Shown here piece by piece: positions 5,674-40,453 of a stretch of DNA of 52,376 nucleotides. Each line of letters begins with the position of its first letter. Position 1 is the stretch's first letter. The stretch spans positions 1-52,376 of the forward strand of contig JAFGQO010000103.1 in NCBI GenBank assembly GCA_016935615.1, written 5' to 3'. The DNA comes from Bacteroidales bacterium (GTDB taxonomy: Bacteria; Bacteroidota; Bacteroidia; Bacteroidales; UBA10428). Position numbers and translations under genes: made by a program. The notes under the pieces were generated by a model. It did no database searches and was not told where the DNA came from. It worked only from the letters and a program-made list of their open reading frames with translations.

Positions 5674-7737
5674 ATGGATAACAAAAATGATAACAAAATG
5701 AGAACAAAAACAATTAAAGCAAGTTTATTACTGCTTCTTTTTAATTCAATCCTGATCCTGATTTCATTTGGCCAGGAGATACCTCCCTTTGTCTATACCG
5801 TTGAGAACACGGGGGTGGATTGTACTGCGCCACCTTTGCCCGCTTTCGCCGATCTTCCGGTCATTAAGCCTCTGACCGACCCCTTTGAGTGGTCCGATAG
5901 GAGCGGCCGCGACACCACCTTCGCAAACTGGACCCGCCGGCGGGCTGAGATCAAGGCAGAGATCGAACATTATGAGATCGGACTGAAACCAGATCGTCCG
6001 GATACCATTTCAGCCTTTTATGCTAATGATACACTTACGGTTCATGTAGTGAAAAACGGAGATACCCTTACCCTGATCTCACCAGTTATACTGCCCGAAG
6101 GGGAAGGCCCCTTTCCTGCAGTGATAGGAATCGGACTTCCTTCAGGATTCATCCCGGCTGATATCTTTACAAGTCGTGATATTGCACAAATTGAATTCAA
6201 CTATACACAGGTAATGGCCCATACACAGAGTCGTGGCCACGAACCGATCAACAAGCTTTATCCCGATCTTATTTATATGGGAGCCTACAGTGCCTGGTCC
6301 TGGGGAGTCAGCCGCCTGATCGATGGTCTGGAACTGGTTTCGGGGGATCTCCCCATTGACCTTGAGCACCTCGCCATTACCGGTTGTTCCTTTGCCGGTA
6401 AGATGGCACTCTTTGCCGGGGCGTTTGACGAGCGTATTGCACTTACAATCGCACAGGAGTCAGGGGGAGGAGGTGCAGCAGCATGGCGTGTTTCTGAGAC
6501 CCTGGGAGCTGTTGAAACGCTGGGTTCGACCAGCCATGCCTGGTTTATAGAAGACATGTTCCAGTTTGCAGGCCGAAATGTTTCGAAACTACCACATGAT
6601 CATCATGAGTTGATGGCAATGGTAGCCCCCCGTGCATTGTTCGTGATTGGAAATCCCTCTTATATATGGCTGGCAGATGAGTCGGGCTATGTCTCTTGTG
6701 AGGCTGCAAAAAGGGTTTGGGAAAATTTTGGAATAGAAGACAGGTTTGGATATTCTATCGTCAGCGATCCAAACCACTGCTTTCCATTCCCGGCAGCTCA
6801 TAAACCAAGGGTAGAGGCTTTTGTAGATAAATTTATGCTTGGGGATACATTGGTAAATACTGACATCGCAGTTCATCCCTATGCTGATTATGTCATTCCT
6901 GCCTACTGGACAGAATGGTGGGGTAAAGGGGACCCGTATTTCCCGGTATTTGACAGGGGAGAAAGTGAAGAGGTGTGGTATGAAGCAGAATGCTCAACAG
7001 TTGGAGCGGCCTGGAATGTCAGGCTTGATACAATGGCGTCGAATGGTAGCTATGCAGTCGTTAAACCCGGATTAAATAACAATAAAGCACCTGCTGATAG
7101 CGGAGCAGCAATTTATTTTCCGTTTAACGTGGCTTCGGGTAATACCTATTATGTATATGGGCGTGTGAATAGTCCGACATACGATAACGATCAATATTGG
7201 ATAAAAATTGACGATGAACCGTATGTCTATAATCGTACTTATTTAACAGAAGGATGGGAGTGGAATAAATTTGCCGGATATACCCTCTCAGCGGGTGAGC
7301 ATACTCTCTCCATTGCTTTTCGAAGTGAAGGCTTCAAACTGGATAAAATATGTATTTCAGAGTTTTACTATCCCCCCGGGGAGAAAGGTGAACCTGCAGA
7401 ATTTTCCTGTGTACCGGATACAACCACAAAACCTTATGTTGTAATCACATTGAATGATGAAGCTGCAGCCGGTGCATATTCCCTGGGTCAGAACTTCCCG
7501 AATCCTCTGAATGACAAAACAACAATAGATTTTGAGCTTCCACGAAATACGTATGCTTCCCTGAAGGTATATTCAATATTGGGTGAAGAGATAGCAGAAC
7601 TTGCCGGAATGGAATATCCTGCAGGCAAGCATACCGTTGAATTTAATGCCCGGAACCTTTCCGGAGGCATGTACTTCTACACGCTGAAAACGGCCGGCTT
7701 CTCTGCAACCCGGAGAATGATTATTCTGGCCGAATAG
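5674..7737 (+). CDS. CE15-like glucuronoyl esterase with carbohydrate-binding module and T9SS tail
   Basis: This is a predicted secreted esterase of family CE15, whose characterised members cut ester bonds between lignin and glucuronoxylan. A signal peptide ends near residue 34 (start at 5674, or the ATG at 5698). The alpha/beta-hydrolase domain covers about 70-390. The triad is readable as S239 in GCSFAGK, E262 in QESGGG and H368 in NHCFPFP, with spacings close to fungal CE15 enzymes. The usual Arg after the serine (GCSRxGK), which helps build the oxyanion hole, is F240 here. A CBM6/35-like beta-sandwich follows (about 430-575), then a T9SS sorting domain (about 600-687, from QNFPNP). Base composition is clearly GC-richer than the cassette region to its left. 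A hairpin terminator follows. Confidence 0.8.
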   Translation: MDNKNDNKMRTKTIKASLLLLLFNSILILISFGQEIPPFVYTVENTGVDCTAPPLPAFADLPVIKPLTDPFEWSDRSGRDTTFANWTRRRAEIKAEIEHYEIGLKPDRPDTISAFYANDTLTVHVVKNGDTLTLISPVILPEGEGPFPAVIGIGLPSGFIPADIFTSRDIAQIEFNYTQVMAHTQSRGHEPINKLYPDLIYMGAYSAWSWGVSRLIDGLELVSGDLPIDLEHLAITGCSFAGKMALFAGAFDERIALTIAQESGGGGAAAWRVSETLGAVETLGSTSHAWFIEDMFQFAGRNVSKLPHDHHELMAMVAPRALFVIGNPSYIWLADESGYVSCEAAKRVWENFGIEDRFGYSIVSDPNHCFPFPAAHKPRVEAFVDKFMLGDTLVNTDIAVHPYADYVIPAYWTEWWGKGDPYFPVFDRGESEEVWYEAECSTVGAAWNVRLDTMASNGSYAVVKPGLNNNKAPADSGAAIYFPFNVASGNTYYVYGRVNSPTYDNDQYWIKIDDEPYVYNRTYLTEGWEWNKFAGYTLSAGEHTLSIAFRSEGFKLDKICISEFYYPPGEKGEPAEFSCVPDTTTKPYVVITLNDEAAAGAYSLGQNFPNPLNDKTTIDFELPRNTYASLKVYSILGEEIAELAGMEYPAGKHTVEFNARNLSGGMYFYTLKTAGFSATRRMIILAE

Positions 7738-12603: not shown

Positions 12604-14439
12604 TTATTTGGAAGCTACCATGGTTTTGGTATATGAGAAACTATCGCCGTTATTTTCTGTACAAACAATGTGGCTTTCAATCTTTTTATTATCCGCCAGT
12701 TCGGCAAACTCCCTCAAACTGTACTCGCGTTGAAAGGCATGCATCGGGAACACTTGTACCGGATCCAGTTTGTCGATCGAGTAGAAGAATCCTTTTACAA
12801 TAAACTCCTTTTTCCATCGCGAGGGACAACCAGTAACCGGTAAGAAGGCAATATCTATCTGCTGTTCCTGATCTGCAATAAAATCAACCTCTTTTTTGAA
12901 AACCATCTCATCTTCGGCAGAAAACCATGCATGGTCCCCCGGATGATAAATCGTTATTCCATCGGCGCTAACAAGAAATCCCTGACCCGAATCATTCGAT
13001 TTCAGTGTAGTAATCGTAATATCATCTATTTGTTTTGCCTGATTGTCATTGATATATACGTATTCAGGGCCATGATATCCCTTTTCATGATGGATCCATG
13101 CTTCTTCAGGTTTAAATCCATACACATAGGTTATGTTTATTACCTGATCGGCCCATTGATAAATGCAGGTATCGTAATGATCGCTATGCTCGTGCGAGAC
13201 AAAGACAATGACATCCAGATCCTTTATTTCTTCAGGACAAACGGAACCATTGGCTAATCCGGGTTTGTCCGGTTTGTTCATGTTCCAGTAATCAAATATC
13301 AGAAGATGTTTTTCAGTTTGTATCACCCATCCTGAGTGACCGCAATAAATCACTTTGGCTTCTCCGTCGTTCACCGTAACAATACCGGATGATTGTTTTT
13401 CCTTTGCAGCAAGAAGTGCTTCTTCAGTGGCCAGAGAATTCGATAGATAATAGTCTACAACCTCAACATATCCGTACTGTATTGCATAGTCGAGGGGAGT
13501 TTTTTGTGCGTAATTCTTACTATCTGCTTTAGCCCCCGCTTTAATTAATAGTTCAGTGGACTTCAGATCACCGTTTATAGCAGCAATATGCAAAGGGGTA
13601 TTCCCCAGACGATTTTCCTGCAAATTAATATTCTGTGTCTTACTGAGAAGCAATGAAACGACTTCTGATTTTTTGTTGATTACAGCATGATGAAGAGGAA
13701 TTCTGCCATCTGAATTTATCCTGTTTGCATTGGCACCATATCCCTGAATTATTTTGATAGCCTCCGAATGTCCTCCGCTTGCCAGGTTATGCATGATCGT
13801 ATTTCCATTAGAATTTGCAAAATTAACATCGGCACCATTTTCGGCTAAAAACCGGATGATCTCCGCATTTCCGTTCCATGAAGCCCGGGCCAAGGGAGTC
13901 TGATCATAATCGTTTGTGGCATGTATATTACCTCCGGCTTTTAGCAAGAGTTGAGCACTTTCCAGATGATCATTTTCCACAGCAAAAAAAAGTGAATTGT
14001 TCCCATTTGTGCCTCTGGCATTGACATTAGCACCATTGTTCAGGAGCAAGGTAATAATGTCGTTATACCCTTTCTGCGCAGCATTATGTAAGGGTGTGTT
14101 TTGCCAGTCGTTCCGGCAATTCACATTTGCTTTTTTGCTTACCAGATATTCTGCCATATCGTAATTCCCTCTCCAGGCAGCAAGGGTTAACATAGTTTCT
14201 TCATTTTTCAGTCGTGCATCGACAAGATCATTATTCTCCTCAACAAGTTCCTTGATTTTGTCCAGGTCCCCGTTCCAGACATAATCGGCCAGTTTTTCAG
14301 TCAATGGTTTTTCTTCACTTTTGTTCGCTGCTTTATCGCAGCTCTGAGACCGGATCCCGGCAGTTGAAAAAATAAGGAACAGTGCTGCCAGAAATACAAT
14401 TCTGATATTCTGTTTCTGATGCTTTTGATTGTTTTTCAT
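12604..14439 (-). CDS. Secreted ankyrin-repeat / metallo-beta-lactamase-fold fusion protein
   Basis: The start is the ATG at 14439, four codons inside the longer frame, and is followed by a signal peptide. About eight to nine ankyrin repeats (roughly residues 48-345) show the typical xTPLHxAAxxGxxxxxxxLLxxGAxxN pattern. A metallo-beta-lactamase-fold domain follows (about 360-600), with metal motif H-x-H-x-D-H (SHEHSDHYD), a YHPGDHAW element, and a final histidine in FPMHAFQRE. This variant resembles the UlaG/YfhB-like lactonase or phosphodiesterase group (GHSGWVI...FDYW...). The substrate is unknown; the ankyrin part could dock it onto a partner in the periplasm. It lies 111 bp downstream of the hybrid regulator gene on the same strand and may share its transcript. 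Confidence 0.85.
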   Translation of the reverse strand: MKNNQKHQKQNIRIVFLAALFLIFSTAGIRSQSCDKAANKSEEKPLTEKLADYVWNGDLDKIKELVEENNDLVDARLKNEETMLTLAAWRGNYDMAEYLVSKKANVNCRNDWQNTPLHNAAQKGYNDIITLLLNNGANVNARGTNGNNSLFFAVENDHLESAQLLLKAGGNIHATNDYDQTPLARASWNGNAEIIRFLAENGADVNFANSNGNTIMHNLASGGHSEAIKIIQGYGANANRINSDGRIPLHHAVINKKSEVVSLLLSKTQNINLQENRLGNTPLHIAAINGDLKSTELLIKAGAKADSKNYAQKTPLDYAIQYGYVEVVDYYLSNSLATEEALLAAKEKQSSGIVTVNDGEAKVIYCGHSGWVIQTEKHLLIFDYWNMNKPDKPGLANGSVCPEEIKDLDVIVFVSHEHSDHYDTCIYQWADQVINITYVYGFKPEEAWIHHEKGYHGPEYVYINDNQAKQIDDITITTLKSNDSGQGFLVSADGITIYHPGDHAWFSAEDEMVFKKEVDFIADQEQQIDIAFLPVTGCPSRWKKEFIVKGFFYSIDKLDPVQVFPMHAFQREYSLREFAELADNKKIESHIVCTENNGDSFSYTKTMVASK

Positions 14440-14549
14440 AATTACCTCCATGTTTTGATTTTATACAGCCAAATTAGGGTATTGGAGGTATTCATAAACG
14501 ACGAAATAATCCTAAAAACAGCAGAAATAGCTCAAAATTGCAAGATAAG

Positions 14550-21471: not shown

Positions 21472-24468
21472 TCAGGGTTTGCATACAATAGCCTTCGTAC
21501 TTCTTCCGTCAATTTCAATTTGCAGGGCTTTGTTGAATCGTATATGTCTCAGGTATTTACTCTCGTTTTCGGAGAAAAGGGAATTGAGGTATTCAAGGTC
21601 GATTTTCCCATCGCCAATTTGAGTGTTTATGGTCAGATAGCCCACACCAAATGTGGTAAGGTTATGGAAAAAATGGGTTCCCTGGCTGGGATCAACTTTG
21701 TATTTTTCCAAACCCAATTCAACAATAATGCGTGCTGAGGATATTTGCGCCCATTTTACCGGAATTCCCAGCCACGGATCACTTGAACCCCATCTGCCTG
21801 GACCGATCAGTACATAGTTCCTGTTTTTTTCTGCCAGAGTTTTATTAATTTTTTCAAGCTCAGAAGCGATTTTCGCATTGTCAGCCTTATTGAACGAATC
21901 CAACTTTACATAGACAATATCCTTTATATTTTCCATGCGGCCGTTGCCCATTGCTCTTTCTGATGAAATGATGATTTGATCTTCAGGAATTTCAGATAGT
22001 TTTTTAATCAGGATTGTTTCATGAGATACTATGGGTCTTACCTGTAAATAATAAAAATCTTTTGGTTCGTTTTGCGGAGTATCCAGGTTGGCAGCAAATT
22101 CAATTTCAACAGGATGATTTAATGCGTGGCTGCTGATTTGAAGCAAGTCATTAACAATGTCGGTAAGAGGAAATTTGTTATGATTTAATATGTTTGAAAA
22201 AGTAATCAATTTTTTCCCTGAAGCAACAAGTCCGTCAACAATACTATTGTTCACATGATCGTAAGTGGAAGCTGCATATTGGAATGACGGATTATTTTCC
22301 GCTTCTTTCACAGGGATCTTCAGAAGATTTATTTTATCATCAACAGCAGCTTTAAAATGCTGCGGGTCCATATCTATTGCGAAAAAATACTTCTGACTGT
22401 CTTTCATGGCTTGCTCAGGCGTTGACAACTGGAGTATCTTTTTTGGATATTTCGGTGAAAAACGCAGAGATGTTCCACCTTCCACGATCAGTCTTCCAAG
22501 TCCATAAGCAAGATTCAGGATGGCATCATCCGATGTTTCTTTGCCAACGGGATAGTAATTTATTGACCGGGCGACACCGGAGAGTGTCGGATAGAAATGG
22601 CCATGATAATTTTTACCGCAAACTGATTGAAGGATGATACCCATCTTTTCCTCATCAATCAGGTTAGATGTTGCTGTGATATAATCTTTACTGGCTTTAT
22701 AAAATACCGATGCATAAACACCTTTAACAGCCTGTTCAAGCATGCCGACAGCCGTCTTTGGATTTTTGTGCGGAGGCACCATAAATGTGTTGTAAATTCC
22801 GGCAAAAGGCTGGTATAATGAATCTTCAAGTTTGCTGGATGAACGTACCGCTACCGGATTGGTTGCTATTGAAGCAATAGCCATGAAATCATTTTTGATC
22901 TTTTCGGGAAATTCAGCTTTAATAAAATGTTCCAGTATTTCCGAATCGTCCGATGCAGATAATCCGATCGAGTAGAGGTCGTTTCTCTGCATAAAATTAT
23001 CAAATATCTCTGTGGTAAGGACAACACTTGGTGGAACGGATATATTCACTCCAGGGTATTTTGCACTCAGATTTTCTGTTTTTAATACGGAGTTCATGAA
23101 AGCAAGCCCCCTGGCTTTGCCTCCCAGGCTTCCCTGTCCGATCCTTGAAAAGAAAAGGTATTCATCAAATTTGCTTCTGTCAAATTCGGCAATAATGCCA
23201 CGGGCTTTGCTGAATCTGAAATTTGTGATACTCTCATAGATGTATCTGCGAACACCATCGGGGCCTTTAAAATCGTCAAATTGAGCTTCTTTAAACCGCT
23301 TTGCAATTGAAAACAAGGCACGCGCATTCAGCCATTTTGAAAAATCATCTCTCCTGGTATGGTATTCAATTATTTCATCAGGAATATCAAGGATGAGTTC
23401 CTGAAGAGATTTCAGATCATAGGCGATATAACTTTCTTTACCTGTTTTCGGGTCAATAAATACAAATTCTCCGAAGCCAAAATTTTTGAGCACAAAATCC
23501 CGCAATTCATTGGATATATTTTTCGAATGCTTATACAAAAACCCGACATTCAATTTTTCAGCAACAGCTTGATTTGAAACGTCAGATGACTGCAACAAAA
23601 AAGGAATATTTATGTCATCGTTCTTTACAAATCTGCAAAACTTCAGTCCGGCACGTGTTTTTGTGTCTCTTTTATTCGGAGCAACTTTATAACTCACATC
23701 TGAAATAATACCAAGAATATGTCCTCTGAATTTTTCATATGTTGAAACTGCTTCCCTGTAATTCTTTGCGAGCAATATTTTAGGTCTTCCTCTTCGTCTG
23801 AGCATTTGTTGGTGTTCGTTCAGTGCCTCTTTAACAAACTCTTTTGATTGCTCCAGTATAATGCGGTACAGATTGGGAAGATAGGATGATATGAAACGAA
23901 TTGAATCTTCAACAAGCAGGATAGACTGCACTCCTATTTTAAGGATATCATTTTCAGCATTCATTGAGTCTTCAATAAGTTTGATGATAGCGAGGAATAT
24001 ATCAGGATTACCCAGCCAGCAGAACACATAGTCAATGGCAGAAAGGTCCTCTCTTTCCAGTCGTACAGATACTTCTCTCGAGAAATGTGTCAGCACAACA
24101 ATAGGAATGTAGGAATATTTACTTTTCAGCTGTTTTGCCAACTGGAAAGCATCAGTATCTCCAATACTCAGCATTTCAATGATAAGGTCAATATCATCGT
24201 TTTTCAATATACCGGCTGCTTTTTTTGCCGAATTGGCATGTATAAAAACAGGAGGATACCTGAGGTTCAGCGATACATATTCATTAAATATATGCTCATC
24301 GATGCGCCCGTCTTCTTCAAGCATATAGAAGTCATACTGACTGCAAATTACCAGCACTTTCCTGATTCGTCTCTGCATCAGCAGATTGAACGAAGTATCC
24401 GGGAGGTTTATAAAATTTGTACTCTTATTATTGTTGCGATTTTTGGACATTACTGTATCGATATACAT
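21472..24468 (-). CDS. Double-receiver protein fused to PPDK-type ATP-grasp domain
   Basis: This 998-residue protein of unknown role has three readable parts. Residues 35-167 are a degenerate receiver-like domain: glutamate replaces the phospho-acceptor in LIIEM. Residues 180-330 form a second receiver with an apparently intact pocket: E187/D188 (LLVEDS), D257 (IISDVS) and K313 (FLYKHS). From about 440 to 800 it is a PPDK_N/PEP-synthase ATP-grasp domain with GSLGGKARGLA and VAVRSSSKLEDS, ending at YYLQVRPIV. The swivelling phosphohistidine domain and the PEP/pyruvate barrel of PPDK and PEP synthase are absent. Instead there is a C-terminal 170-residue region with the distinctive NYVLIGPGRWGSSDPWLG. 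It lies 81 bp behind korB on the same strand. A regulatory kinase or phosphotransferase role toward 2-oxoacid metabolism is inference only. Confidence 0.8.
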   Translation of the reverse strand: MYIDTVMSKNRNNNKSTNFINLPDTSFNLLMQRRIRKVLVICSQYDFYMLEEDGRIDEHIFNEYVSLNLRYPPVFIHANSAKKAAGILKNDDIDLIIEMLSIGDTDAFQLAKQLKSKYSYIPIVVLTHFSREVSVRLEREDLSAIDYVFCWLGNPDIFLAIIKLIEDSMNAENDILKIGVQSILLVEDSIRFISSYLPNLYRIILEQSKEFVKEALNEHQQMLRRRGRPKILLAKNYREAVSTYEKFRGHILGIISDVSYKVAPNKRDTKTRAGLKFCRFVKNDDINIPFLLQSSDVSNQAVAEKLNVGFLYKHSKNISNELRDFVLKNFGFGEFVFIDPKTGKESYIAYDLKSLQELILDIPDEIIEYHTRRDDFSKWLNARALFSIAKRFKEAQFDDFKGPDGVRRYIYESITNFRFSKARGIIAEFDRSKFDEYLFFSRIGQGSLGGKARGLAFMNSVLKTENLSAKYPGVNISVPPSVVLTTEIFDNFMQRNDLYSIGLSASDDSEILEHFIKAEFPEKIKNDFMAIASIATNPVAVRSSSKLEDSLYQPFAGIYNTFMVPPHKNPKTAVGMLEQAVKGVYASVFYKASKDYITATSNLIDEEKMGIILQSVCGKNYHGHFYPTLSGVARSINYYPVGKETSDDAILNLAYGLGRLIVEGGTSLRFSPKYPKKILQLSTPEQAMKDSQKYFFAIDMDPQHFKAAVDDKINLLKIPVKEAENNPSFQYAASTYDHVNNSIVDGLVASGKKLITFSNILNHNKFPLTDIVNDLLQISSHALNHPVEIEFAANLDTPQNEPKDFYYLQVRPIVSHETILIKKLSEIPEDQIIISSERAMGNGRMENIKDIVYVKLDSFNKADNAKIASELEKINKTLAEKNRNYVLIGPGRWGSSDPWLGIPVKWAQISSARIIVELGLEKYKVDPSQGTHFFHNLTTFGVGYLTINTQIGDGKIDLEYLNSLFSENESKYLRHIRFNKALQIEIDGRSTKAIVCKP

Positions 24469-34007: not shown

Positions 34008-35339
34008 TTGGACTCAGATCCCTTTAATTCAGTTTTACTATTAGTAACCAGCATAGAGGTAGAAAAACTCACATTTGGTATTGCATTGGCCATTGTTGTG
34101 ATGTTATTGCTGTTTTTTATTTCCGGGCTTGTGTCGGGGAGCGAGGTAGCTTATTTTTCGTTATCTCCGGGTGAAATAGCCAAGTTAAAAGCAACCGACA
34201 ACAGATTTAGCAGAATGGTATTGTATCATCTGCAGGCACCTGAAAGATTGCTGGCAACCATACTTATTACGAATAATTTTGTGAATGTTGCAATTGTTGT
34301 GATATCTACTTTTATCACTCAATCTTTATTTGTTTTCAGTGGTCCTGTCTGGGTGGCCTTTGTAATTCAAATTGTGGTTGTAACCTTTCTGATTCTGTTT
34401 TTCAGTGAAATATTCCCTAAAATATATGCGAATCGTTTTTCGATCACATTTGCATTGTTAACAGCTCCAAGTCTTAAGTTTTTCAGCAAGCTTTTTTGGC
34501 CGGTGAGTTCATTTTTAATTTATTCTACCTCAATTGTAAATAAGAAGCTGGCAAAACATTCCGGCAATATCTCTTTTGATGAATTGTCGGATGCCCTGGA
34601 ATTAACGGAGAAACATCTTGCCGAAGAAAAAAACATACTGAAGGGAATTATCAAATTTGGTAATATTGATGTATGTGATATAATGAAGTCGAGAGTAGAT
34701 ATTGTTGCAGCTGATATAAACAGCAATTTCAAAGAATTACTGACACTTATCAACAATTCGGGATACTCAAGGATCCCGGTTTTTCAAGATACTTTTGATA
34801 CGATCAAAGGAATTTTATATGTTAAAGATCTCCTGCCTTATGTCAATAAACCAAAGACATTTAAATGGCAATCTCTTATCAGACCTTCATATTTTGTTCC
34901 CGAGAGCAAAAAGATCAACGATTTATTGAAAGAATTTCAAACAAACAGGATACATCTGGCCGTTGTGGTTGATGAATACGGAGGGACATCAGGAATTGTC
35001 ACACTGGAGGATATTCTGGAAGAAATAATAGGTGAGATCATAGATGAGTCAGATGAAGAAACCCCGCCATTTGAGAAAATTGATAACAGCAATTTTATCT
35101 TTGAAGGAAAAACCTTATTGAATGATTTTTACAAGATTATTGAAGTGAGCGACACAATATTTGATGAAGTAAAAGGCGAGGCAGATACACTTGCCGGATT
35201 GATACTGGAACTCAGGGAAGAATTTCCGGCGAAGGGCGATAAACTTGCATACAAGAACTTTGTTTTTGAAATTCTGTCGGTAGATAAACGAAGGATAAAA
35301 AAAGTTAAGGTGAACATAAGATCCAGTATCAATAAATAG
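34008..35339 (+). CDS. gldE: Gliding motility-associated protein GldE (DUF21/CBS/CorC family)
   Basis: This membrane protein of 443 residues contains a DUF21 domain with about four membrane helices (about 18-150), a CBS pair (about 205-340, with VDEYGGTSGIVTLEDILEEIIGEI) and a CorC/HlyC C-terminal domain (about 350-435). The start is a TTG at 34008 (LDSDPFNSV); no ATG fits the family N-terminus. gldD follows immediately. In Flavobacterium johnsoniae GldE partially supports GldD in gliding/T9SS function. The T9SS-tailed proteins in this window agree with a working secretion system. Confidence 0.88.
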   Translation: MDSDPFNSVLLLVTSIEVEKLTFGIALAIVVMLLLFFISGLVSGSEVAYFSLSPGEIAKLKATDNRFSRMVLYHLQAPERLLATILITNNFVNVAIVVISTFITQSLFVFSGPVWVAFVIQIVVVTFLILFFSEIFPKIYANRFSITFALLTAPSLKFFSKLFWPVSSFLIYSTSIVNKKLAKHSGNISFDELSDALELTEKHLAEEKNILKGIIKFGNIDVCDIMKSRVDIVAADINSNFKELLTLINNSGYSRIPVFQDTFDTIKGILYVKDLLPYVNKPKTFKWQSLIRPSYFVPESKKINDLLKEFQTNRIHLAVVVDEYGGTSGIVTLEDILEEIIGEIIDESDEETPPFEKIDNSNFIFEGKTLLNDFYKIIEVSDTIFDEVKGEADTLAGLILELREEFPAKGDKLAYKNFVFEILSVDKRRIKKVKVNIRSSINK

Positions 35340-35341
35340 TG

Positions 35342-35935
35342 GTGAAGAAGACTATGAATTGCTGTAAAAATCCAGGGTATTGTTGCATTGTATTTTTCTT
35401 GTTCCTTTTTGCATGCAAAACACCGGTGACGCCAAAACCCCGGGGCTTTTTCAGAATAGATTTTCCTGAAAAAGAATACCGGAGATTTCAAAGTGACTGT
35501 AATTTTTCTTTCGAATCACCGGTTTACGGAGAGATAATCAGATCCAGTCTCCGGAATGCAGAACCCTGTTGGTACGATATCAGATTTGATGAGTTTGGAG
35601 CTACGATTCATTTGACATACAAGTCGCTGAAAAATATGGATCTGGAATATTACAGTGAAGATGTGAGACGAATTGTTTACAAACATATTGTAAAAGCTGA
35701 TGACATTATTGAAGCTCCGGTATATCTTCCGGAATCTGATGTTTACGGATTTATTTATAACATTGAAGGGAATACGGCTTCTTCTGTAAATTTTTACATT
35801 ACAGATAGTGTTTCCGGGTTTTTAAATGGCTCATTGTACTTTAATGTGCAACCAAATATTGATTCTTTGGCACCATCTATTGAATTCTTTAAAAAGGATA
35901 TTATACATTTGATAAACTCATTTGAATGGGAGTAG
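35342..35935 (+). CDS. gldD: Gliding motility lipoprotein GldD
   Basis: This lipoprotein has the lipobox LFAC and then KTPVTPKPRGFFRIDFPEKEYRRF, typical of GldD. Candidate starts are GTG at 35339, GTG at 35342 and ATG at 35354. I take 35342 because it keeps the lysines of the signal peptide without overlapping the gldE stop. The body (about 195 residues) contains EPCWYDIRFDEFGATIHLTY. GldD is needed for gliding and T9SS in F. johnsoniae. It follows gldE directly. Confidence 0.88.
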   Translation: MKKTMNCCKNPGYCCIVFFLFLFACKTPVTPKPRGFFRIDFPEKEYRRFQSDCNFSFESPVYGEIIRSSLRNAEPCWYDIRFDEFGATIHLTYKSLKNMDLEYYSEDVRRIVYKHIVKADDIIEAPVYLPESDVYGFIYNIEGNTASSVNFYITDSVSGFLNGSLYFNVQPNIDSLAPSIEFFKKDIIHLINSFEWE

Positions 35936-35942
35936 TAAGAAG

Positions 35943-36581
35943 ATGCCTCTAATTTTTAAAGAGAAATTTCAGGGCGATTGTTTATTCGGTATCTGGGAAA
36001 TTAATGAGACCTATGAAGAACTTGCAACTGTCGTGCACCTTTTTCCCGGAGAAAAGGAAAGACTTTTTGGTTTTACCAGTGAGGCAAGAAAAATTGAATT
36101 TCTGAGTGTAAGGATTTTGCTCAAAGCGTTAATAGGTGTGTGTGGCCCTATTGTTTACAGTGATCATAAAAAACCATACTTGCACCAGAGTAATTACCGG
36201 ATTAGCGTTTCACATTCAAAAAAGCTCACATCAATCATGTTGAGCAAAACAAAAAAGATCGGAATTGATCTGGAATATATGTCGCATAAGATCAGTAAGG
36301 TTCAACACAAGTTTATCAATGAGGATGAATACATAACTTCTGATGAATCCAAAAAAAAATACCATCTTTATATTCACTGGTGTGCAAAGGAAGCCCTTTT
36401 TAAGATTTGTGATAAACAGGATATTAATTTCAGAAGGAATTTAACGATAGAACCATTTGAACCTTCTGAATATGGGATTATTTACGGATGGGTTGATAAT
36501 AAATTCTGGCACGATAAATTTGAATTGAATTATTTTACAATAAACAATTATGTTGTTGTTTATTGCTGTAAAAATACGTAA
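35943..36581 (+). CDS. 4'-phosphopantetheinyl transferase superfamily protein
   Basis: This is a Sfp-type enzyme that transfers phosphopantetheine from CoA to a carrier-protein serine. Diagnostic motifs are ISVSHSKKL, IGIDLEYM (GIDxE) and WCAKEALFK (WxxKEA), with magnesium-binding D and E residues present. I start at the ATG at 35943, seven bases after gldD; a TTG at 35922 would overlap gldD. It has 212 residues. Its carrier protein is not in the window. Confidence 0.85.
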   Translation: MPLIFKEKFQGDCLFGIWEINETYEELATVVHLFPGEKERLFGFTSEARKIEFLSVRILLKALIGVCGPIVYSDHKKPYLHQSNYRISVSHSKKLTSIMLSKTKKIGIDLEYMSHKISKVQHKFINEDEYITSDESKKKYHLYIHWCAKEALFKICDKQDINFRRNLTIEPFEPSEYGIIYGWVDNKFWHDKFELNYFTINNYVVVYCCKNT

Positions 36582-36583
36582 AA

Positions 36584-37306
36584 GTGAATCTGTATCAACA
36601 TATTTGTAAACCGGGGAAAAAATTCGCTTTACTTATCGATCCTGATAAGTATACCGTAAATTCTCTCATTGCTACAATTTTTGCTGCAGAAGAATCAGGA
36701 TCTGACCTGATCCTGGTAGGAGGAAGTCTTGTAAATGATCGCATAGATTCTACTATCGAGTTGATCAAAAAAAACACCAGGATACCTGTGATCCTGTTTC
36801 CGGGAAGTCTTATGCAACTGAGTTCAAAAGCTGATGCATTATTACTTCTCTCCCTTATTTCAGGACGAAATCCCGAATACCTGATAGGGAATCACGTGCT
36901 TGCTGCGCCATACCTTAAAAGATCGGGCATTGAAATCATTCCCACAGGGTATATCCTTGTCGGAGAAGGCAATTCTTCAGTGGAATATATTAGCAATACC
37001 AAACCGATTCCTCAGGATAAGACTGATATTATTACGGCAACAGCCATTGCCGGAGAATTAATGGGAAATAAGGTAATTTACCTTGAATCGGGAAGTGGTG
37101 CGGATCAGTCGTTAAGTTCGGAAGTGATCAAAGAAGTAAAACGCAGTATTTCTATCCCGTTGATCGTCGGCGGAGGAATAAAAACCTCATCTCAGATCCG
37201 TGAAATTATTCATGCCGGAGCTGATATTGTAGTGGTAGGTAATGCTGTTGAAAAAGACATTCAAATACTTGATTCACTGGTAAAAGCCATTCATAGTATC
37301 AGGTAA
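36584..37306 (+). CDS. Geranylgeranylglyceryl-phosphate synthase family protein
   Basis: This TIM-barrel protein of the GGGPS/PcrB family couples a polyprenyl diphosphate to glycerol-1-phosphate. The signature ALLIDPDK (15-22) and the phosphate-binding GGGIKTSSQI and GADIVVVGNAVEKD are present. Bacteroidota enzymes of this group are known to make ether-linked prenylglyceryl phosphate in vitro, but the in vivo product is unclear. The start is GTG at 36584, 2 bp after the transferase gene, so both are translated from one message. Confidence 0.88.
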   Translation: MNLYQHICKPGKKFALLIDPDKYTVNSLIATIFAAEESGSDLILVGGSLVNDRIDSTIELIKKNTRIPVILFPGSLMQLSSKADALLLLSLISGRNPEYLIGNHVLAAPYLKRSGIEIIPTGYILVGEGNSSVEYISNTKPIPQDKTDIITATAIAGELMGNKVIYLESGSGADQSLSSEVIKEVKRSISIPLIVGGGIKTSSQIREIIHAGADIVVVGNAVEKDIQILDSLVKAIHSIR

Positions 37307-37698: not shown

Positions 37699-39345
37699 CT
37701 ATTCTATAATTTCCAGTATAGGATTTCCCGATGCGGAATTTGGATACGATATTTCCAAGAGAGCGCTGATTGTTGGTGCAATGTCTGTAAGATCAACTGA
37801 ACGAAGGATTGAATTTCGCCCTATTTTCCAGCCATACCAGATCAAAGGAACTCTTCTGTCATGTCCGTATGCAGTACCAAAACCATTGTCAGATCCCGGA
37901 CTTTCAGCCCAACCGGCTTTAAAATTAATCATAACATCTCCTGAACGCTTCTGGTTATATCCGTTCTGTATGGTTGCAAATATACCCTGTGAAAAATTGG
38001 TGGAATGCAGGGTAGAGGCAGTCATTGTATTGGCAATACCGCTGAATTGAAGCATTAAATTGGCAACATCATTTTGAACGGATGCCAGATCCATTTTTGC
38101 ATCTTCTATCAGGGTCCTGTTCAAATAAATTTGCTGGCCGTGATATTGCTTGATCCAGTCACCTTTGCCATAAATATTATTCATATAACTTTTTAGCAGC
38201 GATATTGCACTGGCACTATTAAAATAACCTGTTGGAATTTTGTGATCTTGCAGGTATTCAGGCATATGCATAATGCCATGCTCTCCGGTTACATAGATCA
38301 ACACATTTTCTTTTCCCAGGTTTTTATCAATAAAATCCAGCAAATGTGCAATTTCTCTGTCAAGTCTGAGCATAATGTCTTCAACTTCAACTGACAGGGG
38401 TCCGTAAAGATTTCCGATTTGTTCACTTACGGTAAATGTTATTGTTAATACATCGGTATATTCATCTTTGCCCAGTTCTTCCTCAAGAATAGTAGAAACA
38501 GCAAAATCTTTTGTAAGATTATTTCCAAAAGGAGTGTAACGTAAAATTTCATATTTTTCCTTTTTCTTGATTTTTTTGATCAGATCCTTGAGAACGTAAG
38601 GAAAAACTTTATGTCCGTAAATTCCTGTTTCATATTCGTTATTGTCCAGCAAACTGGCATTATATTCGCTCATAGGCAGGAGCGTTGTCCATTCCTGTTC
38701 AATATAAGTGTCTGAAAAATTCTTTTTATTAAATTCATTTACCCAATTGGGAAGGGAATCACAATAAAAGGAGCTGGTAATCCATGTGCCGTTCTTTGCA
38801 TCGAACCAGTAAGCGCAATCGGCCGTATGTCCGGTTGAAAAAATAGCCGGAGCAGGATCCAGAGACACGCCTATTACTTTCGATTTAAAGTTATTGGCAA
38901 GTTTTATCTCATCGGCAAAGGTGGTAGTCATCAATTGATGGGGTGAGAATCTGCCGCTTTCATATCCTCCTCCAATGGTATTGACTTTCTCATCATAAGT
39001 ATAGGAAATGATATCATCACGCAGATTATTGTACCATGAGCTGGCTATTATTCCATGTTGCGACGGATTGGTTCCCGTTGATATTGTCGCACTGCCTACA
39101 CCAATATCAGAGAATAAATAATTGAAGGAGGTATTTTTGCAGTAACTGCCTCTGTTAATAAGCTTTTTAAATCCGTCTTCGCCAAATTTATCCCAATATC
39201 TGGGAATATAATCGTAACGTAACTGACTGATAACAATGCCAATAATTAATTTTGGTTTTTCAGAAGGGATGACGGTGGTTTCCTGAGAACAGACCGGATC
39301 GAACAAAATGATATTGAAAATGAAAAGATATACTAAATACCGCAT
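37699..39345 (-). CDS. PafA-family phosphatase homologue with replaced active site (pseudoenzyme)
   Basis: This 548-residue secreted protein (signal peptide 1-20) is collinear with PafA alkaline phosphatase of Elizabethkingia over its whole length. Anchors include PKLIIGIVISQLRYDYI, GTNPSQHGII, EVEDIMLRLDR and VDLTDIAPTISALL. From memory of PafA, the catalytic residues align as follows. D38 becomes S40, nucleophile T79 becomes I81, and N100 becomes S102. K162 and R164 become D163 and A165. D305 becomes E308, H309 becomes N312 and D352 becomes E355, while H353 is kept as H356. Both histidines of the C-terminal THxxxxxYDxH stretch become F489 and R498. Hydrolysis by the PafA mechanism is therefore unlikely; a binding or scaffold role is inferred. 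It lies 10 bp behind ychF on the same strand. Confidence 0.85.
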   Translation of the reverse strand: MRYLVYLFIFNIILFDPVCSQETTVIPSEKPKLIIGIVISQLRYDYIPRYWDKFGEDGFKKLINRGSYCKNTSFNYLFSDIGVGSATISTGTNPSQHGIIASSWYNNLRDDIISYTYDEKVNTIGGGYESGRFSPHQLMTTTFADEIKLANNFKSKVIGVSLDPAPAIFSTGHTADCAYWFDAKNGTWITSSFYCDSLPNWVNEFNKKNFSDTYIEQEWTTLLPMSEYNASLLDNNEYETGIYGHKVFPYVLKDLIKKIKKKEKYEILRYTPFGNNLTKDFAVSTILEEELGKDEYTDVLTITFTVSEQIGNLYGPLSVEVEDIMLRLDREIAHLLDFIDKNLGKENVLIYVTGEHGIMHMPEYLQDHKIPTGYFNSASAISLLKSYMNNIYGKGDWIKQYHGQQIYLNRTLIEDAKMDLASVQNDVANLMLQFSGIANTMTASTLHSTNFSQGIFATIQNGYNQKRSGDVMINFKAGWAESPGSDNGFGTAYGHDRRVPLIWYGWKIGRNSILRSVDLTDIAPTISALLEISYPNSASGNPILEIIE

Positions 39346-39355
39346 ATACTATGAA

Positions 39356-40453
39356 TTAAACATTGAAACGAATATGTAAAATATCACCATCCCCGACAAT
39401 ATAATGTTTTCCTTCGACAAACAATTTACCTTTTGCTTTGCATTCATTTTCCGAACCCAGTTCAATGAAATCTTTATATTTCATTACTTCGGCACGAATA
39501 AAACCTCTTTCCAGGTCGCTGTGAATTACACCCGCAGCTTCCCGGGCATTCATTCCTTTTTTAATTGTCCAGGCTTTTATTTCTTTGGGACCCACAGTGA
39601 AAAACGATTGTAAATTGAGTAAATTGTATGCCGATCTTACAAGTTTGTTGACACCTGGTTCAGCAAGACCTGCATCCTGAAGAAATGCATTGCGGTCTTC
39701 CATATCTTCAAATTCGGCTATATCTGCTTCCAGCTTGCCGGCAATGATCAGAATTTCTTTTTTCTGTTCAGTTAAAAAGGTCTTTACGCTTTCCACGTAA
39801 GAATTTCCGTGAACAGCTGAGTCTTCATCCACATTGCATACATACAGCATGGGTTTTGCGGTAAGCAGGAACAAATCAGAAATATGCCTGGTCTCTTTTG
39901 AATCCAGTCCCATATCCCGGATGTTACCAAAATTTTCCAGGTGCTCTTTTGCTTTATTCAACACTTCCATAGCTATGCGAGCTTCCTTATCACCAATTTT
40001 GATCAGTTTTTCAAGACGGGGCATTTTTTTTTCAACAGATTCCAGGTCTTTTATTTGAAGTTCCAGATCGATGGTTTCAATATCGCGCACGGGATCAACA
40101 GATCCTTCAATGTGAGGCAAATCAGGACTGTCAAAACAACGAAGTACATGGATCAGAGCATCTGTATTGCGTATATCTCCAAGAAATTTATTTCCAACTC
40201 CCTCGCCCTGGTTTGCGCCTTTTGTTAATCCCGGTATATCGACAATATCTACTGTAGCCTGAATTACTTTTTCAGTTGGCTGAAGTTTTTCCAGTTCATG
40301 CAGCCTTGGATCGGGGACAAGTACCAGCCCGACATTCGATTTATTTGTACTAAAAGCAAAATTGGTAGTTTCTCCTTTTGTATTTGATATGCAATTAAAA
40401 AGAGTCGTTTTCCCAACATTGGTAATCCCGACAATACCGCAATGCAAAGCCAT
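39356..40453 (-). CDS. ychF: Ribosome-binding ATPase YchF (Obg family)
   Basis: YchF has 365 residues, a P-loop GIVGITNVGKTTLFN (6-20; usually ...PNVGKST), the G3 motif DIPGLTKGANQGEGVGNKFL, a coiled-coil insertion (about 130-200) and a C-terminal TGS domain ending HIRFNV. It is an ATP- rather than GTP-preferring ribosome-associated protein. A well-formed promoter lies upstream (40481-40512). It is co-directional with the PafA-like gene after a 10-bp gap. Confidence 0.95.
   Translation of the reverse strand: MALHCGIVGITNVGKTTLFNCISNTKGETTNFAFSTNKSNVGLVLVPDPRLHELEKLQPTEKVIQATVDIVDIPGLTKGANQGEGVGNKFLGDIRNTDALIHVLRCFDSPDLPHIEGSVDPVRDIETIDLELQIKDLESVEKKMPRLEKLIKIGDKEARIAMEVLNKAKEHLENFGNIRDMGLDSKETRHISDLFLLTAKPMLYVCNVDEDSAVHGNSYVESVKTFLTEQKKEILIIAGKLEADIAEFEDMEDRNAFLQDAGLAEPGVNKLVRSAYNLLNLQSFFTVGPKEIKAWTIKKGMNAREAAGVIHSDLERGFIRAEVMKYKDFIELGSENECKAKGKLFVEGKHYIVGDGDILHIRFNV

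Follow-up and report, generated by a model that had tools for sequence, protein, structure and literature searches.

What does a PafA do once nearly every residue of its active site has been replaced? The question is raised by a gene on the minus strand of a 52,376-nucleotide contig from a Bacteroidales bacterium (JAFGQO010000103.1, assembly GCA_016935615.1), the whole of which was analysed and is hereafter called the window. Phosphorus-cycle surveys count PafA as the constitutive phosphatase of Bacteroidetes. Its presence has been reported in 78.7% of Bacteroidetes genomes (PMC8115612), and a survey published in 2022 went from 468 to 423 isolate sequences by dropping those with changed key residues, apparently without describing them (PMC8812569). 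A degenerate PafA family is described nowhere in the literature searched, with subscription papers and preprints lying outside the search, and a claim of priority is unwarranted. The family would point to a conserved protein of the envelope that has apparently gone unstudied, in an order prominent both in the gut and in the environment. The reading that we favor, with a probability of roughly 0.6, is that of a partner-docking periplasmic pseudophosphatase that shed catalysis after it had gained a new surface.

The Window Gene and Its Homology to PafA

The gene (37699–39345, minus strand) encodes a protein of 548 amino acids from an ATG start without internal stops. Its product matches PafA from end to end: the Elizabethkingia PafA entries 5TJ3/5TOO are recovered by HMMER with E-values of 3e-111 and 1e-111 over residues 21–547, and the Pfam match is PF01663 (E = 6e-28). 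The two best solved-structure matches of its AlphaFold model (mean pLDDT 93.1, pTM 0.91) are likewise PafA entries (Foldseek; TM 0.94, rmsd 2.2 Å, 36% identity), and such a match makes another register, with the catalytic residues placed elsewhere, unlikely. The first-pass annotation, made from the letters of the window, had claimed full-length collinearity with PafA and an intact reading frame, and both claims hold; the structural comparison that it had named as a possible refutation gave no sign of a relocated site, in a Foldseek search that does not check single side chains. A pseudogene or a frameshift was considered and ruled out, the frames being open. PhoK/SPAP of Sphingomonas (3Q3Q, 5XWK) belongs to the same superfamily and matches the fold at a TM of ~0.8, but is an active enzyme with 22% identity to the window protein.

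Assignment to PafA itself depends on what is compared. On the one hand, full-length homology, the predicted fold and a signal-like N-terminus are common to the window protein and to PafA as represented by the Elizabethkingia structures and by the NCBIfam equivalog NF042991. On the other hand, the window protein scores 591.5 bits against NF042991, under its cut-off of 650 bits, retains one of the ten residues formed by the ligands of the two zincs together with T79, N100, K162, and R164, and has its constraint moved to residues 375–436. The PafA model of NCBIfam is matched by all 82 members of alignment A2, and the only NCBIfam models for such proteins are those of the active PafA and PhoY equivalogs. 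As read from the sequence, a hydrophobic signal-like segment spans approximately residues 1–20 (MRYLVYLFIFNIILFDPVCSQ; 39286–39345, minus strand) and is probably a signal of the signal peptidase I type; the protein itself would be periplasmic. No further PafA homologue was found in the same genome at E ≤ 1e-3, and a PhoA-family gene is present.

Replacement of the Catalytic Residues

Alignment with PafA reveals replacements at nine of the ten catalytic and metal-binding positions, all coordinates here being on the minus strand. The nucleophile T79 is replaced by I81 (39103–39105), the substrate-binding N100 by S102 (39040–39042), and K162-D163-R164 by D163-P164-A165 (38851–38859). Zinc ligand D38 is replaced by S40 (39226–39228), D305 and H309 by E308 and N312 (38410–38424), and H486 by F489 (37879–37881), while D352-H353 correspond to E355-H356 (38278–38283), of which H356 is the only catalytic residue retained. 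The replacements initially read at the nucleophile, zinc-ligand and substrate-binding positions are confirmed by this alignment, save for one detail: F489 and R498 had both been offered as counterparts of H486, and F489 does align with it, whereas R498 aligns with PafA H495. The window protein is predicted to bind no zinc pair and to carry out no hydrolysis.

The losses are concentrated at the active site, as is apparent from the other invariant positions. Among 61 active homologues, 61 columns are at least 95% identical, 10 of them catalytic and 51 non-catalytic; the window protein retains 46 of the 51 versus one of the 10 (Fisher p = 1e-6), in agreement with the earlier statement that the flanking conserved segments are well preserved. 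The five other losses (PafA H83, Y112, D163, S302, and Y492) lie mostly near catalytic residues in the sequence. F489 stands beside the loop around the H486 counterpart, which apart from the N-terminus is the region modelled with least confidence: the pLDDT is 59 for block 481–490 and below 50 for residues 485–487, compared with 84 for the same block in an orthologue with an intact site (L048). This low confidence, which is a proxy only, fits a loop without metal anchoring.

Distribution across Bacteroidales

A match at E < 1e-50 was found in 172 of the 295 Bacteroidales genomes sampled. Across the 236 distinct homologues that were aligned, 0–5 of the ten residues are kept in 167 sequences, all from Bacteroidales, 9–10 in 69, and 6–8 in none. 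The site is kept by all 49 sequences from outside the order, two of them with a gap at D38 only, which is taken as an alignment effect, and this despite a similarity to P0001 that is far lower than that of the degenerate homologues. Every clear orthologue from the genus and family of the window is degenerate. Catalysis is predicted from these alignments to have been lost through most of Bacteroidales in a protein that stays otherwise intact, and since most of the copies recovered by homology in the order are predicted to be dead, PafA counts may overstate its phosphatase capacity.

Each of the ten residues survives in some degenerate lineage, and which ones survive differs by family. A complete single metal site is kept in some degenerate lineages (Zn1 in six, Zn2 in seven), so that not all degenerate copies need be metal-free. 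A few lineages keep T/S79 along with a complete Zn2 site, or have the Zn1 site in full, which speaks for some remaining or changed catalytic activity, e.g., hydrolysis of a small substrate with one metal or none; for the window protein this is very improbable, because it carries Ile at the nucleophile position and has lost ligands at both metal sites, and because no new clade-wide invariant acid, His or Ser appears at the catalytic columns. Genomes G022 (L016, L218), G085 (L121, L185), G024 (L217, L028), and G154 (L212, L190) each carry two copies, one degenerate and the other a canonical active PafA; G022 belongs to the family of the window, and its active copy L218 is its second PafA. The canonical active copies of these genomes were perhaps re-acquired.

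Descent from an Active Ancestor

Trees were built with the ten catalytic columns removed, and the later ones omit the rows on several long branches that had joined in fasttree. The Bacteroidales sequences group together in a single clade in the careful tree (UFBoot 100, SH-aLRT 99) as well as in the quick tree, and eight intact copies lie inside it (L048, L077, L120, L123, L126, L127, L128, and L136); one mixed group of ten rows (UFBoot 99) comprises four intact and six degenerate sequences. The survey of orthologues that the first-pass annotation had proposed as a check thus cuts both ways: the 167 degenerate homologues extend its reading to much of the order, and intact-site orthologues such as L048, L120, and L123 are what it had named as contrary evidence. 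Nested as they are among degenerate sequences, the intact copies date the change and do not undo it, and they indicate that the ancestor was active. Together with the active outgroups, they supply the descent from an active ancestor by which a pseudoenzyme is recognized.

If the ten residues cannot be regained, the tree demands at least three losses (irreversible counting on the careful tree), and the retention of different residues in different families is a further sign that an almost intact ancestor decayed along separate paths. The site may have been lost once or several times, for a tree that gathers all degenerate rows into one clade is not rejected (AU p = 0.117).

Purifying Selection and a Shift of Constraint

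Ratios of dN/dS in the three degenerate pairs near enough for a measurable dS are ~0.07 (L010/L012), 0.06–0.08 (L075/L076), and 0.11–0.14 (L067/L069), and that of the active pair L127/L128 is 0.07. Open frames under purifying selection, the other mark of a pseudoenzyme, are therefore present, the ratio being taken from other degenerate pairs because those of the window gene are dS-saturated. The claim of a selected non-catalytic function, first made from a single sequence, is strengthened by the 167 open frames, by dN/dS values of ~0.06–0.14, by the conserved locus and by the well-packed predicted fold. That the protein is a decaying relic of an unneeded enzyme is hardly credible: the catalytic columns do look relaxed and the host has its PhoA-family gene, but the frames are open order-wide, dN/dS is low and constraint has risen in one segment.

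Averaged over columns, information content hardly differs between active (2.01 bits) and degenerate sequences (1.94 bits); in the catalytic columns it falls from 4.34 to 1.31 bits. The segment of gained constraint, defined by column-information gain, covers residues 375–436 (38038–38223, minus strand) and holds 23 of the 36 most-gained columns, where about four are expected (hypergeometric p = 3e-15). Its counterpart is the fastest-evolving stretch of active PafA, with a mean pairwise identity of 0.213 vs. 0.437 elsewhere (0.25 vs. 0.51 when the closer active set is taken); among degenerate sequences, the corresponding values are 0.448 and 0.409. Many of the gained residues are aromatic, and possibly serve core packing.

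A pattern of 15 positions (F375, L383, Y387, Y392, W397, Y401, Q405, E414, Q424, F430, Q433, G436, W479, W506, and G241) is complete (15/15) in each of the eight intact nested copies; the window protein scores 14, degenerate copies score 7–15 and other active copies 0–11. High degenerate scores arise by construction, the degenerate sequences having served to define the pattern; what is informative is that the intact nested copies score perfectly. Scores of 8–11 in some active copies from outside Bacteroidales suggest that the pattern arose gradually. Since the intact nested copies share the constrained segment, a new role residing in residues 375–436 would have come first, and catalysis would have been lost afterwards.

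The first-pass annotation had suggested binding of phosphorylated or sulfated ligands, taken here as binding in the altered pocket with no cleavage, a suggestion with which the retained fold and the preferred replacements at some columns (E/S at 38, D at 100, D/N at 162) are in keeping. However, the pocket residues are moderately or poorly conserved and vary between sister families, the cationic clamp K162/R164 has given way to mainly acidic or neutral residues (D, N, E, Y, A), the model is least confident in the loop near H486, and the new constraint is located elsewhere. Ligand binding of this kind did not fare well and is in our judgment unlikely, pocket drift and the lost clamp making it less probable than partner docking.

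Under partner docking, the subdomain between D352/H353 and H486 would have become newly constrained in the ancestor of the large Bacteroidales clade while the enzyme was still active, and is probably a docking surface for another protein; it is for residues 375–436 that we infer this protein partner. Once the docking role was established, catalysis would have been dispensable, and the nucleophile, both zinc sites and the substrate clamp may have been lost or left to drift along family-specific paths, with the fold and the new surface retained. The window protein would then be a periplasmic pseudophosphatase descended from active PafA, kept at its ancestral chromosomal place and having a scaffolding or partner role in the cell envelope. 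The receptor phosphatase PTPRK, with its pseudophosphatase domain (PMC9640194), offers a parallel in that a dead phosphatase fold is kept for partner recruitment, but such proteins are eukaryotic and of unrelated fold, whereas in the present, bacterial case inactive copies are the majority of the family across an order. The natural series of intact, half-degenerate and fully degenerate copies at one conserved locus lets the order in which the new surface comes first be tested.

Genomic Context

The YchF GTPase gene lies upstream of the pseudo-PafA gene across a gap of 10 bp (39356–40453, minus strand), an arrangement shared by further genomes of the genus and family, and a convergent block of GldE, GldD, PPTase, and PcrB (34008–37306, plus strand) marks the conserved locus. 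The block recurs in many other families and also beside the intact L048. CrcB is directly upstream of active copies from outside the order (L099, L268), of intact nested copies (L123, L128) and of many degenerate ones, and is thus a neighbor common to some active and some degenerate genes. Because neighbors are shared in this way, the degenerate genes appear to sit where pafA originally stood and, by position and by tree, appear to be its orthologues. At L105, too, the fluoride channel gene crcB is directly upstream of pafA. At L048, L051, L052, L077, L165, and L177, which represent several families, the PafA gene is followed on its own strand by genes for a subtilase (S8) and for a 248-aa protein that has no Pfam match. 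Dependence on the type IX secretion system (T9SS) was ruled out: 15 of the 20 GldN-less genomes among those listed carry a strong PafA homologue, and pseudo-PafA is hence not a T9SS-dependent part.

At ~14 loci of one branch, Lnb, pseudo-PafA, and SecA follow one another on one strand, Lnb being assigned by domains and SecA by sequence. In Bacteroides, Lnb acts as the lipoprotein N-acyltransferase (PMC13251419, PMC13103446), and a narrower form of the docking view would tie the work of the protein specifically to Lnb, SecA, or both, during the maturation or export of lipoproteins. Besides gene order, co-occurrence is consistent with this: Lnb is present in 114 of the 172 genomes with a PafA homologue vs. 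20 of the 123 without one (OR 10, uncorrected for phylogeny), the association persists with one genome per family (OR 11, p = 1e-8, uncorrected for the species tree), and the control gene PhoA is unassociated (OR 0.7, p = 0.5). However, 22 of 67 family representatives carry a PafA homologue but no detected Lnb, YchF, PcrB, and GldD are the neighbors elsewhere, and Lnb is on another contig in the genome of the window. The link to Lnb is suggestive, and the narrower view is for now rather doubtful; its fullest version, a dedicated non-catalytic factor on the Lnb/SecA side of lipoprotein maturation or export, whose bifunctional PafA ancestor evolved the docking surface at 375–436 and then lost catalysis repeatedly, is improbable. 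A search of the literature for an essential SecA-linked gene, or for matching Bacteroides locus tags, returned nothing.

Other Genes of the Window

Several other genes of the window deserve mention. A 615-aa protein (12604–14451, minus strand) unites ankyrin repeats with a metallo-β-lactamase-like domain (PF13483), an unusual pairing, and a 998-aa protein (21472–24468, minus strand) combines a PPDK ATP-binding domain with a weak receiver-like stretch near its N-terminus. The gene at 5674–7737 (plus strand) encodes a fungal-type glucuronyl esterase domain with a type IX secretion tail, and a GH16 hydrolase is encoded near it, at 762–2243.
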